From the NCBI GenBank assembly GCA_020833225.1, contig JAJHQS010000001.1, positions 1 through 64,000 on the forward strand: a DNA stretch of 64,000 nt, in the 5' to 3' direction. Position 1 is the stretch's first letter; each line of letters starts with the position of its first letter. Of the stretch, positions 5,207-41,394 are shown piece by piece. The notes below the pieces were generated by a model. The model was given only the letters and a program-made list of their open reading frames with translations, searched no databases and was not told the DNA's origin. The position numbers were made by a program, and so were the translations under genes. This DNA comes from Desulfurococcaceae archaeon (GTDB lineage Archaea; Thermoproteota; Thermoprotei_A; Sulfolobales; Desulfurococcaceae).

Positions 5207-6103
5207 TTGATACGAAGATCTTTCATTATACTGCGCAGGAGTCTTAGAAAAATTCGATTTAAAATAGGTATAGTGATATCGCTCGTCGCAATCTTCTTAG
5301 CTATACTTGCGCCATATATAGTACCACGTCCTCAAGAAGGATTAGGATATGTTCCTCGAGATGTTGAGGCGAGAAGGCTTTTGCCACCATCTATAGAGCA
5401 TATTTTTGGAACAGACTCGTTAGGTAGAGATCTCTTCTCAAGAGTAATAATGGGTACTAGAACGGCATTATTACAAGTCTTTATTGTAATAACTATAAGT
5501 TTCTTACTTGGATTACTCCTGGGAGCTATAGCAGCATATTTAAGAGGCCTGGTGGAAGTTTTACTTAACTATTTTACTGAGATATTCATGGCTATGCCAA
5601 CTATAGTTATAGCATTAGTATTAAGATTAACACTAGGCCATGGCATACATGTGACAATATCGTCTCTTATAATGACATGGTGGGCTTGGTATGCCAGAAT
5701 AGCATATGTTTACGCAAGAGGCGTGGTAGAATTAGACTATGTAATATTAGCGAGACTAGCGGGATTACATAGCCTTAAGATACTACATCGTCATATAGTA
5801 CCTAATATTATTCAGCCACTTATAGCACAAGCTATCACAGATCTCGGAAGCGTCCTCTTAGAAGCTGCAGCAATAAACTTTCTAGGCCTTGGTGTACAGC
5901 CGGGATATCCCGAGTGGGGTGTAATACTTTATGAGAGTGTTTTCTATGGTGGTGGAGTTGAAGTATTTACACAAGCCCCCTGGCTTATAGTGTTTCCCGG
6001 AGTATTTCTCTTATTGGTTACTCTAGGTTTTAGCCTGATAGGTGACTGTTTAAGAGAAGAAATAGATCCACGGTTGAGACGCAGGTGGAGGTTGTGGTTT
6101 TAG
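5207..6103 (+). CDS. ABC transporter permease, DppC/OppC type
   Basis: HIFGTDSLGRDLFSRVIMGTRTAL signature; GLGVQPGYPEWG motif. Confidence 0.92.
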   Translation: MIRRSFIILRRSLRKIRFKIGIVISLVAIFLAILAPYIVPRPQEGLGYVPRDVEARRLLPPSIEHIFGTDSLGRDLFSRVIMGTRTALLQVFIVITISFLLGLLLGAIAAYLRGLVEVLLNYFTEIFMAMPTIVIALVLRLTLGHGIHVTISSLIMTWWAWYARIAYVYARGVVELDYVILARLAGLHSLKILHRHIVPNIIQPLIAQAITDLGSVLLEAAAINFLGLGVQPGYPEWGVILYESVFYGGGVEVFTQAPWLIVFPGVFLLLVTLGFSLIGDCLREEIDPRLRRRWRLWF

Positions 6104-7056
6104 CTATAGTAATGGAGAATTTAAAAGTAGGCTATATAATTGAGGATGAAGTGTTTTGGGCTGTAAAAGGTGTAGACTTAGTAGTTGAAGAAGGAACTAC
6201 GCTGTGTATCATAGGTGAAAGTGGTTGTGGTAAATCAACGCTTGCTAGTGCTATTACAGGTATATTACCGCCATATGCTTTAACAGATGGTAAGCTGAAA
6301 TTATTTGATCATGTTGTGATTAATGGTCAGTTGAGAAATTACAATGGTATTCGTGGTAAAATAACTGCATATATACCACAAAACCCTGGCACAAGTTTAA
6401 ATCCCTTTTTAACAGTCGAAGAGCATTTCTATTACGTGCTTAGAAGCAATTTTAAAAGTGATAGAGAATTTTCTAAGAAAATAGCTATGGAGATTCTTCC
6501 GAAAGTTAATCTTGACTCTAGTGTGCTCGAGAAATATCCACATGAACTTAGTGGCGGTATGCAACAGAGAGTAATAATAGCCTTAGCCTTAGCAACAAAC
6601 GCTCAGATATTAGTAGCAGATGAACCCACATCGTTTATCGATGCACATTTGCGACTCCAAATAATAGAGCTCTTAGGTAGACTTCAAAGAGAATTTAAGA
6701 AAACACTGATAGTTATAACACACGATCTTCTAACTACAAGCACCATATGTGATTATATAGCTATTATGTATGCTGGCAAGATCATGGAAGTGGGGCCTCG
6801 TGAAAAGGTACTGAGAAATCCGAGACACCCATATACAAAGATGCTCTTGGAAACTACACCCATTCTCGGTGTTAAAAAGCGACTTAAACCCATACCGGGA
6901 GAACCTCCTAGCCTAGGTAAGGAATATCAGGCATGTCTTTTCCTCGATAGGTGTCCTTATAAGAGTAAAGAGTGCTATTCTGATCCACAAATTCAGGTAA
7001 TTGAAAACTCGCATTTTTCAAAGTGTTGGAAAGCTCTGGAGGCACCATGGTTATGA
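6085..7056 (+). CDS. Oligopeptide ABC transporter ATP-binding protein, DppD/OppD type (start may be ATG at 6112)
   Basis: Walker A GESGCGKST, LSGGMQQR signature, C-terminal oligopeptide-type PGEPPSLG...C...C region. Confidence 0.93.
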   Translation: MEVVVLAIVMENLKVGYIIEDEVFWAVKGVDLVVEEGTTLCIIGESGCGKSTLASAITGILPPYALTDGKLKLFDHVVINGQLRNYNGIRGKITAYIPQNPGTSLNPFLTVEEHFYYVLRSNFKSDREFSKKIAMEILPKVNLDSSVLEKYPHELSGGMQQRVIIALALATNAQILVADEPTSFIDAHLRLQIIELLGRLQREFKKTLIVITHDLLTTSTICDYIAIMYAGKIMEVGPREKVLRNPRHPYTKMLLETTPILGVKKRLKPIPGEPPSLGKEYQACLFLDRCPYKSKECYSDPQIQVIENSHFSKCWKALEAPWL

Positions 7057-38822: not shown

Positions 38823-40064
38823 TTAAGTTTGAATATAGATTTCAATATAGCCAGTCATACTAGATACTTTTAATAATTCTAGGCCTACGAGTATGACAGC
38901 TGATGTAATACCAACTTCGTGTGGAGATATTGTCACAGTGTATGTTTTACTCCAGAATGATAAACTATTAGTACTTATATAAGATGATTCGAGTGGTATT
39001 CTCTTAAGCCATGGTTTAAATGTATCTGAGGATCCTCTTCCAAGTGAGACAGGTGTTAGTGGTGATGTAGTAGCATCGTAAATATAGACGACTGGGATGA
39101 AGTCTAGTGTTAATGGGTATTGTGTTGAACCCAAGTAATAGTATCCTCTAACTTTTATCGTGACATTGAATTGAATAGGCGTATTACCTGTGTATTTTAG
39201 GAGCCTGTAGACCTGGAAGTAGTTATAAGTCCATGTTAAATCTGTCCCAATGATTAGTAGACTTGAGTTTTGCACGAAGTAGAAGTTTTCTCCTATAATT
39301 GGTCTTGGGGGATATGGGTTTGTTGTATATTTACCATATAGCCCATAGGTTAACCAGTGAAATCTACTAGACATATTACAATTACAAACCATATCCCAAT
39401 ATGGTCCACCATAAGCATCAAACCTAACTCTACTACAATCGATAGGTCCTACTAAATATAAGAATTCTTTAAATCCTGGTTGATTGTAAATATCCATGTT
39501 GATATTTCCGACATGTAACTTATATCCATAGCTTAATATCGGGATAAGCTCCGAGTTGTATGTAGAATTACTATTACTACTAGACAAGTACTCTATTAAC
39601 TCTGAATCTATATAACCTTTACTTCTCAAATAGTCTGGTGCTGTGGCTAATCCGGGGTCATCACGTGGATTATAGTAGTAAATGACACCGTCATTAGATA
39701 CTAGTAAAATGTGAAATGGTGTATTTATGATTGGAATTTCTACGGAGTAAGAGTTATTCACGAGAATATCTAAGTACTTGTAATGTAAGAGATTTCCTCC
39801 AAGATCTCTTAATATAATCTCCCTAACATAAACTGGTATACGCGGATATATAGTGAGCAATAGCACACTCTCATTAACATATCTTAGTGTTAAAATAGGT
39901 GGGTAAAGTATATACTGAAACCTAGTACTAGCGGTACTTATGTCCTCCTTAAGATATAGTATTGAATGTTTACTCCAAATAAAGAGTCCTAATACTGCTC
40001 CAGTTATTAGAATTAATGCTAAATACGCTCCTACTATAGACTCTATACCCTTCACTGTAAACAC
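38823..40064 (-). CDS. Type IV pilin-like/secreted protein with single N-terminal TM segment
   Basis: KGIESIVGAYLALILITGAVLGLFIW class III signal-peptide-like N-terminus followed by a large polar, Tyr/Asn/Ser-rich domain. Confidence 0.55.
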   Translation of the reverse strand: MFTVKGIESIVGAYLALILITGAVLGLFIWSKHSILYLKEDISTASTRFQYILYPPILTLRYVNESVLLLTIYPRIPVYVREIILRDLGGNLLHYKYLDILVNNSYSVEIPIINTPFHILLVSNDGVIYYYNPRDDPGLATAPDYLRSKGYIDSELIEYLSSSNSNSTYNSELIPILSYGYKLHVGNINMDIYNQPGFKEFLYLVGPIDCSRVRFDAYGGPYWDMVCNCNMSSRFHWLTYGLYGKYTTNPYPPRPIIGENFYFVQNSSLLIIGTDLTWTYNYFQVYRLLKYTGNTPIQFNVTIKVRGYYYLGSTQYPLTLDFIPVVYIYDATTSPLTPVSLGRGSSDTFKPWLKRIPLESSYISTNSLSFWSKTYTVTISPHEVGITSAVILVGLELLKVSSMTGYIEIYIQT

Positions 40065-40168: not shown

Positions 40169-41303
40169 CTACTCAAAATAACTCATTTTGGTTTTAAGTA
40201 TACCCGCTAAGCCGTTAAATGTCTTATAGAACCATTCAGCTTCGGGCACAGATTTACTTATAGTTACAGCTTTAACACCGTATTGTGAAGCTTTTTCAAG
40301 CCACTCTAGTAGGTCATCTCTATTTTCTCCAAGGAGTAATACTTTTAGTAGGCCTCTCTCAAGAGTTAATTTTACTTCTTCTTCACCATATACGGCCAGA
40401 CCATTATCTTTAGCTATGTGATATTTGAACTCTTCTAAATACTTAAGTGACTCGGCGAACTCTTGTTCTTGTAGGAGATCTCCTGCTTTAAGTATGAGTT
40501 CTCTTAAGCCGGCTTCGCCTTGATATGATACGTCTATAAGCTCTGGGGCGATAATCTGCTTTAGTCTATAGTCAATGTAATCTCCTTGTATAAAATCATG
40601 TTTAGCGTAAGCTGGTCCGCCAATAATTATAGTTTTTAATTTACCTTGTTCAAGTAGTGGTAAAAACACTTTATTTACGTGTTCACCAACTCTCTTGTAA
40701 AATTCCTCAGCTAATTGCTCAATTATCCTATCAAATCTCCTCTGACTTTGCCCACCTTTGTGATGTTTACTTGGTACATAACCTTCGATTTCCTCTACAA
40801 CTTCAAGTCTATTTCCCTTGAGTAACCCAATAGTGGCGTAATCTCTCTCAATTATTAATAATCCAATGATGTTAGACTCCGACACCATTTCCTCTAAAAA
40901 CTCTACGTGAAAGTGCTTGTCTGTTCTGTAGAAGAATAGTGGCACTTTCTCGGGAGGTATGAACATAACTACAACGTTATCACCTGTATCTGGGTTTAAG
41001 CCAGCAAATAATACAAGCCCGTTCTCAGGGATCTTAGGGACTTTGCTCAACCTATCATAAGCAACATTTAAAGCCCACTCTACAGAGTTCCTGGTTTTCT
41101 TTAATTTAATGTTCTCAGCTACAGAGATCTCTTGTCTAAGCAATGCCAGCACATCACTTACAGGTCTACCAGGTGGAATATAGAGGCTTAGTAATATTGT
41201 TGCATGTGCTCTCCACATAGACAACTCTTTTATAATCTCGCGGAGTCTTTGCTTATCAACTCTTAACTTCTCTAATTGCTCTTCACTATAACTAAAAACT
41301 CAT
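40169..41303 (-). CDS. prf1: Peptide chain release factor aRF1, with apparent +1 frameshift near the 5' end (continuous ORF from TTG at 41224; conserved N-terminus extends to ATG at 41303 only after a +1 shift)
   Basis: LLSLYIPPGRPVSDVL; KHHKGGQSQRR GGQ motif; YGVKAVTISK; upstream in-frame SYSEEQLEKLRVDKQRLREIIKEL matches the family N-terminal helix. Confidence 0.92.
41291..41303 (-). promoter_or_regulatory. Candidate +1 programmed frameshift site (ATG-AGT-TTT-TAG-T) or sequencing indel
   Basis: 0-frame ATG AGT TTT TAG; skipping one T restores ATG AGT TTT AGT TAT AGT GAA GAG into the aRF1 frame. Confidence 0.4.
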
Positions 41304-41394
41304 AACCACTCAACCCTCTATATTCAGGTATATTTTACAGCCAAGTTTTTAGAGGTAAGGATAAAACCCCTTTTAAATTTTTCCTCTTGAGTCT

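Follow-up and report, generated by a model that had tools for sequence, protein, structure and literature searches.

How is the archaeal release factor aRF1 made from a gene whose own frame lacks a usable start codon at its 5' end? The question is raised by a locus on the minus strand of the window, by which we mean the whole stretch analysed here, 64,000 nucleotides of the Desulfurococcaceae archaeon contig JAJHQS010000001.1. Comparison with relatives leads us to regard an ancient +1 frameshift that depends on a stop codon, and that would let aRF1 limit its own synthesis, as very probably the best explanation.

The aRF1 locus in the window

Listed mechanically, the aRF1 ORF runs from 41224 to 40169 (minus strand) from a TTG start. 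A profile search identified the gene as aRF1 (TIGR03676, 416 bits against a cut-off of 234.7) and matched its protein to eRF1 domains 1-3 (PF03463, PF03464 and PF03465); directly downstream, at 38823-40064 on the same strand, is a 413-aa protein with no Pfam match. On the 5' side of 41224 the aRF1 frame continues as VFSYSEEQLEKLRVDKQRLREIIKEL back to a TGA at 41302-41300, and between that stop and TTG 41224 it contains no ATG, GTG or TTG. One base out of this frame we observe ATG AGT TTT TAG (41303-41292, minus strand), a zero-frame mini-ORF (M-S-F-stop) that is preceded by GAGGGTTGAGTGG and whose final codon is offset by +1 from the aRF1 frame that it overlaps. A previous sequence-only reading had taken TTG 41224 as the sole start of the continuous ORF, had noted that its frame reaches TGA before any start codon, and had pointed to the ATG AGT TTT TAG in the neighbouring frame with an RBS-like sequence 5' of it. 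Our frame reading agrees on all of these statements, and adds a zero-frame start which that reading had missed, a GTG two codons 5' of the ATG (41307-41309). From GTG 41309 the zero frame translates as V-V-M-S-F-stop, and both starts reach the same shift site.

The putative slippery site, UUU_U, occupies 41294-41297 (minus strand), where the P-site codon UUU (41297-41295) could re-pair with UUU at 41296-41294, and is closed by a zero-frame UAG stop (41292-41294), itself a codon read by aRF1. The +1-frame aRF1 CDS extends from AGT 41293 to its stop codon (40169-41293, minus strand), as indicated by the TIGR03676 match, the eRF1 domains and purifying selection from just after the site, and the predicted full-length protein is MSF plus 374 residues, or 377 aa. 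Upstream, GAGGG at 41314-41318 (minus strand) is a probable Shine-Dalgarno (SD) element for initiation on the mini-ORF, near the register of the pairing peak of family f1. A second, internal SD-like position at -10 to -7 of the shift codon (41304-41307, minus strand) carries GGTT in the window, which is weak compared to the AGGG or GGTG of most relatives.

Conservation of the aRF1 5' end

A survey of 197 aRF1 5' ends from across the phylum reveals the same architecture in 98 of the 105 aRF1 genes of eight families (that of the window, Sulfolobaceae and relatives). In these an ATG, GTG or TTG begins a mini-ORF of usually 3-4 codons ending in NUU and followed by a stop (start, 1-4 codons, NTT, stop), and aRF1 is read in the +1 frame. 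By family the counts were f1 38/38, f2 16/20, f3 15/15, f4 4/4, f5 3/4, f10 1/3, f11 20/20 and f12 1/1. Most sampled relatives within the window's order share the architecture, Sulfolobus acidocaldarius among them. The 92 aRF1 genes of the remaining families gave no clear case and one doubtful one, the motif being absent from aRF1 genes of the other orders and classes surveyed and from all 37 genes of f6, f8 and f9, nearly all of which have an in-frame start at the expected place. We did not count the f7 gene G045 (TTG CCC CAT TTT TGA), since three of its relatives lack the motif, two of them with an in-frame ATG.

The window's family itself comprises 38 aRF1 genes from 16 genera (named members include Desulfurococcaceae archaeon Bin S25 and Thermogladius), and in every one of them a start codon is followed by a single codon, YTT and TAG, with aRF1 lying in +1, for example ATG AGT TTT TAG, ATG GGT TTT TAG, ATG GGC TTT TAG, ATG GTT TTT TAG and ATG AGT CTT TAG. 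The sequence-only reading had suggested asking whether the 5' end is conserved and whether relatives carry an uninterrupted ATG-AGT-TTT-AGT ORF; start, NUU and TAG lie out of the aRF1 frame in 38/38 family genes, and none of them has the uninterrupted ORF. Outside the window's family the site persists with another P-site codon; in Sulfolobaceae the stop differs too (CUU_UGA). We assign f11 to Sulfolobaceae because the proteins of its members G068 and G077 match the aRF1 chain of S. acidocaldarius (PDB ID 8hku) without a difference over 229 residues. Their 5' end reads AAGGG ATG AGT CTT TGA C, and the S. acidocaldarius-type shift region, with its SD-like AGGG and its CTT, is ATGAGTCTTTGAC. Exceptions within the eight families take several forms. 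G069 and G086 (L115, L118) read ATG AAG TAT TAG C with the same +1 offset, and no ATG, GTG or TTG was found in their aRF1 frame near the start; unlike NUU, their P-site codon UAU does not allow re-pairing in +1. In G080, ATA replaces the ATG of other genes, G078 has a zero frame with no canonical start, and G050 and G058/G067, which have an in-frame GTG or TTG, are apparent losses of the shift site.

This conservation decides between several readings of the window's T run. A one-base sequencing or assembly error in a run of five Ts was among the alternatives raised by the sequence-only reading, but the same offset in 98 genes, several of them on single-contig genomes, and a run that is just T3 at 66 of 94 distinct sites (CUUUGA, AUUUAG) refute it, and we regard such an error as in effect excluded. 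RNA polymerase slippage, which would give mRNAs one base shorter, could likewise draw on the T5 found in the window and in many genes of its family. Three Ts, all that those 66 sites offer, are too short for it, and it would not require a stop codon at a fixed place, which makes it hardly credible.

Nor does the arrangement appear to be due to chance, given its recurrence at the same gene in 98/105 cases. As a control we took 521 open frames from the window and two relatives, with genome stretches as control DNA, and asked for sites without a usable in-frame start upstream or nearby downstream. Such sites feeding a long ORF were almost absent. A genome-wide scan for the motif alone was uninformative, as ATGNNNYTTTAGYT occurs several times per genome.

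Two other frames deserve mention in their own right. At L225:16564-17685 (minus strand; G144, f11) TTG TTT TGA is the zero-frame sequence at an FtsY/SRP54-type GTPase frame whose next 25 codons contain no in-frame start; this frame probably starts further in. In the window, at 6049-7050 (plus strand), GTG ACT GTT TAA feeds +1 into the frame of an ABC transporter ATPase (oligopeptide type), an arrangement that is probably due to chance because in-frame GTG/ATG codons lie nearby.

Variation and constraint at the shift site

Nearly every component of the site varies. Across 96 distinct sites the slippery codon is ATT (37), TTT (30), CTT (27) or GTT (2) and the zero-frame stop TAG (76), TGA (18) or TAA (2); the mini-ORF has 3, 4 or 5 codons, and the zero-frame start may be ATG, GTG or TTG. 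An out-of-frame start is nevertheless universal in the 98 genes, the offset is always +1 despite all of this variation, and some stop is always kept while its identity changes between families. NTTT is invariant, and at every site (96/96) the aRF1 frame reads TTT; the TTT share of Phe codons in the control DNA is 70% in the window, 15% in G009 and 68% in G144. The aRF1-frame codon that follows is AGC (56), AGT (20), GAC (10), GAT (6), AAT (2), GAG (1) or GAA (1), each of which (AGY, GAY, GAR, AAY) completes a zero-frame stop with the preceding T. Serine at this codon is encoded by AGY in 76 of 76 cases and never by TCN, against an AGY share of Ser codons of 50% in the window, 42% in G009 and 34% in G144. 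The 96 sites are related sequences, and a simple P value is therefore not given. The base 3' of the stop is C in 66 of the 96.

Over codons 3-25 after the site, pN/pS in the aRF1 frame is 0.06 in the window's genus and 0.12 in two other genera, and in the other two frames it is 1.25-4.7. Comparative sequence thus documents constraint on both stop and slippery site together with coding selection downstream, and purifying selection confined to the aRF1 frame indicates that the N-terminus is translated in this frame directly after the site. These data bear on initiation at a downstream in-frame codon, which in the window would be TTG 41224, an alternative kept by the sequence-only reading. The TTG does exist in the window, but neither the position nor the kind of such a codon is conserved across relatives, and the codons 5' of TTG 41224 are themselves under purifying selection in the aRF1 frame alone. 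Moreover, in 70 of the 98 genes the aRF1 frame offers no start anywhere from its last upstream stop to the site, and in 44 genes there is none upstream or within 15 codons downstream; the in-frame starts of the remaining genes differ in place and kind. Downstream initiation is thus very unlikely indeed, and joins sequencing error and T-run slippage among the explanations that are excluded or very unlikely. Production of full-length aRF1 via a conserved +1 frameshift is, on this comparative evidence, strongly supported.

Shine-Dalgarno-like elements and RNA context

For SD pairing we used the 16S 3' end (GGATCACCTCC in G009). In ordinary genes of the f1-family control, pairing peaks at register -13 from the start codon, with GAGG at about -12 and GGTG at about -10; in ordinary genes of G144 the peak is weaker and broader. 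The aRF1 genes show two peaks with respect to the shift codon, one at about -20 (in f1, f3 and f11) that would serve the ATG, and one at -12/-13, the register of the shift codon itself. Positions -10 to -7 relative to the shift codon carry an SD-like tetramer in 84 of 94 relatives, in 3-codon and 4-codon mini-ORFs alike, and in the 4-codon class this tetramer is an invariant GGTG that doubles as the start. In three-codon aRF1 cases it adjoins the start in 67/77, as opposed to the ATG in only 13/358 control ORFs. Considering that the element lies at -12, one base closer than the optimum of -13, a +1 slip would restore the optimal distance. In f2, TATA-like boxes about 32-37 bases 5' of the start suggest that the mRNAs are leaderless or nearly so, and that the SD-like element can hardly serve initiation there. 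We found no sign of a stimulatory RNA structure in the 111 nt around the site, which fold no better than shuffles (z 0.15), and no Rfam family match for the site region.

The same register is what could favor direct initiation at a non-canonical codon of the aRF1 frame (UUU or a neighbour), directed by the SD-like element and involving no frameshift: the element sits at the normal initiation register of NUU, one base short in most families and exact in f2. Such initiation would however leave the conserved out-of-frame start and the zero-frame stop (TAG, TGA or TAA) unexplained and would give the initiator tRNA a single base pair with UUU, at position 2; we hold it to be decidedly improbable.

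Proposed mechanism

We infer the slip, its dependence on the level of aRF1 and the role of the SD-like element from this arrangement as follows. Ribosomes would initiate at ATG 41303 (or GTG 41309), read AGT and UUU, and meet UAG. Where aRF1 is plentiful they would terminate there; where it is scarce, slow reading of the stop would let the P-site tRNA slip one base 3' from UUU onto the UUU that overlaps it, after which translation in the +1 frame would yield full-length aRF1. The SD-like element 5' of the shift codon probably favours the slip, and the net effect would be that aRF1 limits its own synthesis. Since aRF1 reads all three stop codons, any of those found at the site would be its own substrate. 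By analogy with bacteria, self-regulation is most likely the natural function. The sequence-only reading had proposed a prfB-like autoregulatory +1 frameshift at UUU_UAG; comparative sequence supports this proposal, and from it we infer the feedback.

Constitutive +1 frameshifting at a set ratio, with no aRF1 feedback, would use the same well-supported shift site, and regulation cannot be read from sequence alone. Yet a set ratio should need no stop codon, and a zero-frame stop has been kept through changes of identity in the gene for the very product that reads stops, so that we consider this alternative unlikely. Other observations speak against the feedback frameshift itself. After the slip an AUU or GUU tRNA would be paired at positions 2-3 only, and the 6-nt gap from the SD-like element to the shift codon is the spacing of ordinary initiation. 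A stop as early as codon 4 would leave peptidyl-tRNAs so short that they may drop off; the internal SD-like element of the window itself, GGTT, is weak; in some members an in-frame upstream GTG or ATG could be used as the start; and f6, f8 and f9, in the same clade, use an ordinary start, which means that the device is dispensable.

Evolutionary history and relation to known recoding systems

In a tree of 76 aRF1 genes all shift-bearing families fall in one clade (support 98/94), with f7 outside. Mapped onto this tree, the shift takes six changes, such as a single gain followed by losses in f6, f8, f9, G050 and G058. An ancient gain is the simplest reading, and several gains are also possible, as this is a single-gene tree with some weak inner branches. 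A fuller scenario, which we put forward tentatively as somewhat less than an even prospect, is that a start-proximal autoregulatory +1 frameshift had a single origin before the clade that includes both Sulfolobaceae and the window's family radiated, with two tandem SD elements, a few bases apart, handing the ribosome from the initiation to the shift register and the +1 slip restoring the optimal SD distance.

The bacterial prfB gene for RF2 undergoes a +1 programmed frameshift (PMC12421855), reportedly described by Craigen and Caskey in 1986, and the aRF1 circuit looks like an independently evolved counterpart of this feedback switch. Both concern a release factor gene with an early zero-frame stop read by its own product, a shift in the +1 direction, an upstream SD-like element and a YUU_U slippery site (UUU_U in the window; CUU or UUU at 57/96 sites), and the Sulfolobaceae-type CUU_UGA_C is the E. 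coli prfB shift site. A C is favoured after the stop in prfB as well (PMC12421855). However aRF1 (TIGR03676) is not homologous to RF2, making the gene prfB-like in its working and not a prfB member, and it belongs to the domain Archaea. Its stop is UAG in most genes, otherwise UGA or UAA, while in prfB it is UGA in over 99% and UAA in the rest; the aRF1 shift would occur at codon 3-5 as opposed to codon 25 (stop codon 26), its SD-like gap is 6 nt as opposed to 3 nt, and its sites also use AUU (37) and GUU (2).

Mimivirus and Megavirus share with aRF1 an eRF1-type release factor, recoding at internal stops including frameshifting, and a proposed autoregulation, but they are viral and combine readthrough with frameshifting at internal sites (PMC3521657). 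The aRF1 gene here has a single frame transition with the rest of its ORF open, which sets it outside the Mimivirus type. According to the Mimivirus eRF1 paper, archaeal and eukaryotic homologues lack autoregulatory recoding (PMC3521657). A 2021 review names a single verified frameshift in archaea, that of Saccharolobus solfataricus fucA1 (PMC8211752); it is likewise a programmed frameshift in a crenarchaeon and differs in its -1 direction, its A-rich slippery sequence, its metabolic gene and in not being widely conserved. Among release factors, the part of the GeneTack survey available to us names only bacterial prfB (PMC3711429), and a 2025 prfB survey makes no mention of archaea (PMC12421855). 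We found no published report of aRF1 frameshifting in a search that lay outside most subscription journals and all preprints, and its novelty is likely but not certain.

If true, the aRF1 shift would become the first known case of a +1 programmed frameshift that is conserved across a large group of archaea. It would also be the first feedback of a release factor through frameshifting in cellular organisms whose factor is of the eRF1/aRF1 type. The same circuit would then have been reached twice, by unrelated release factors, in Sulfolobaceae even at the same site, CUU_UGA, and aRF1 start sites may by implication be mis-annotated across Sulfolobales genomes.
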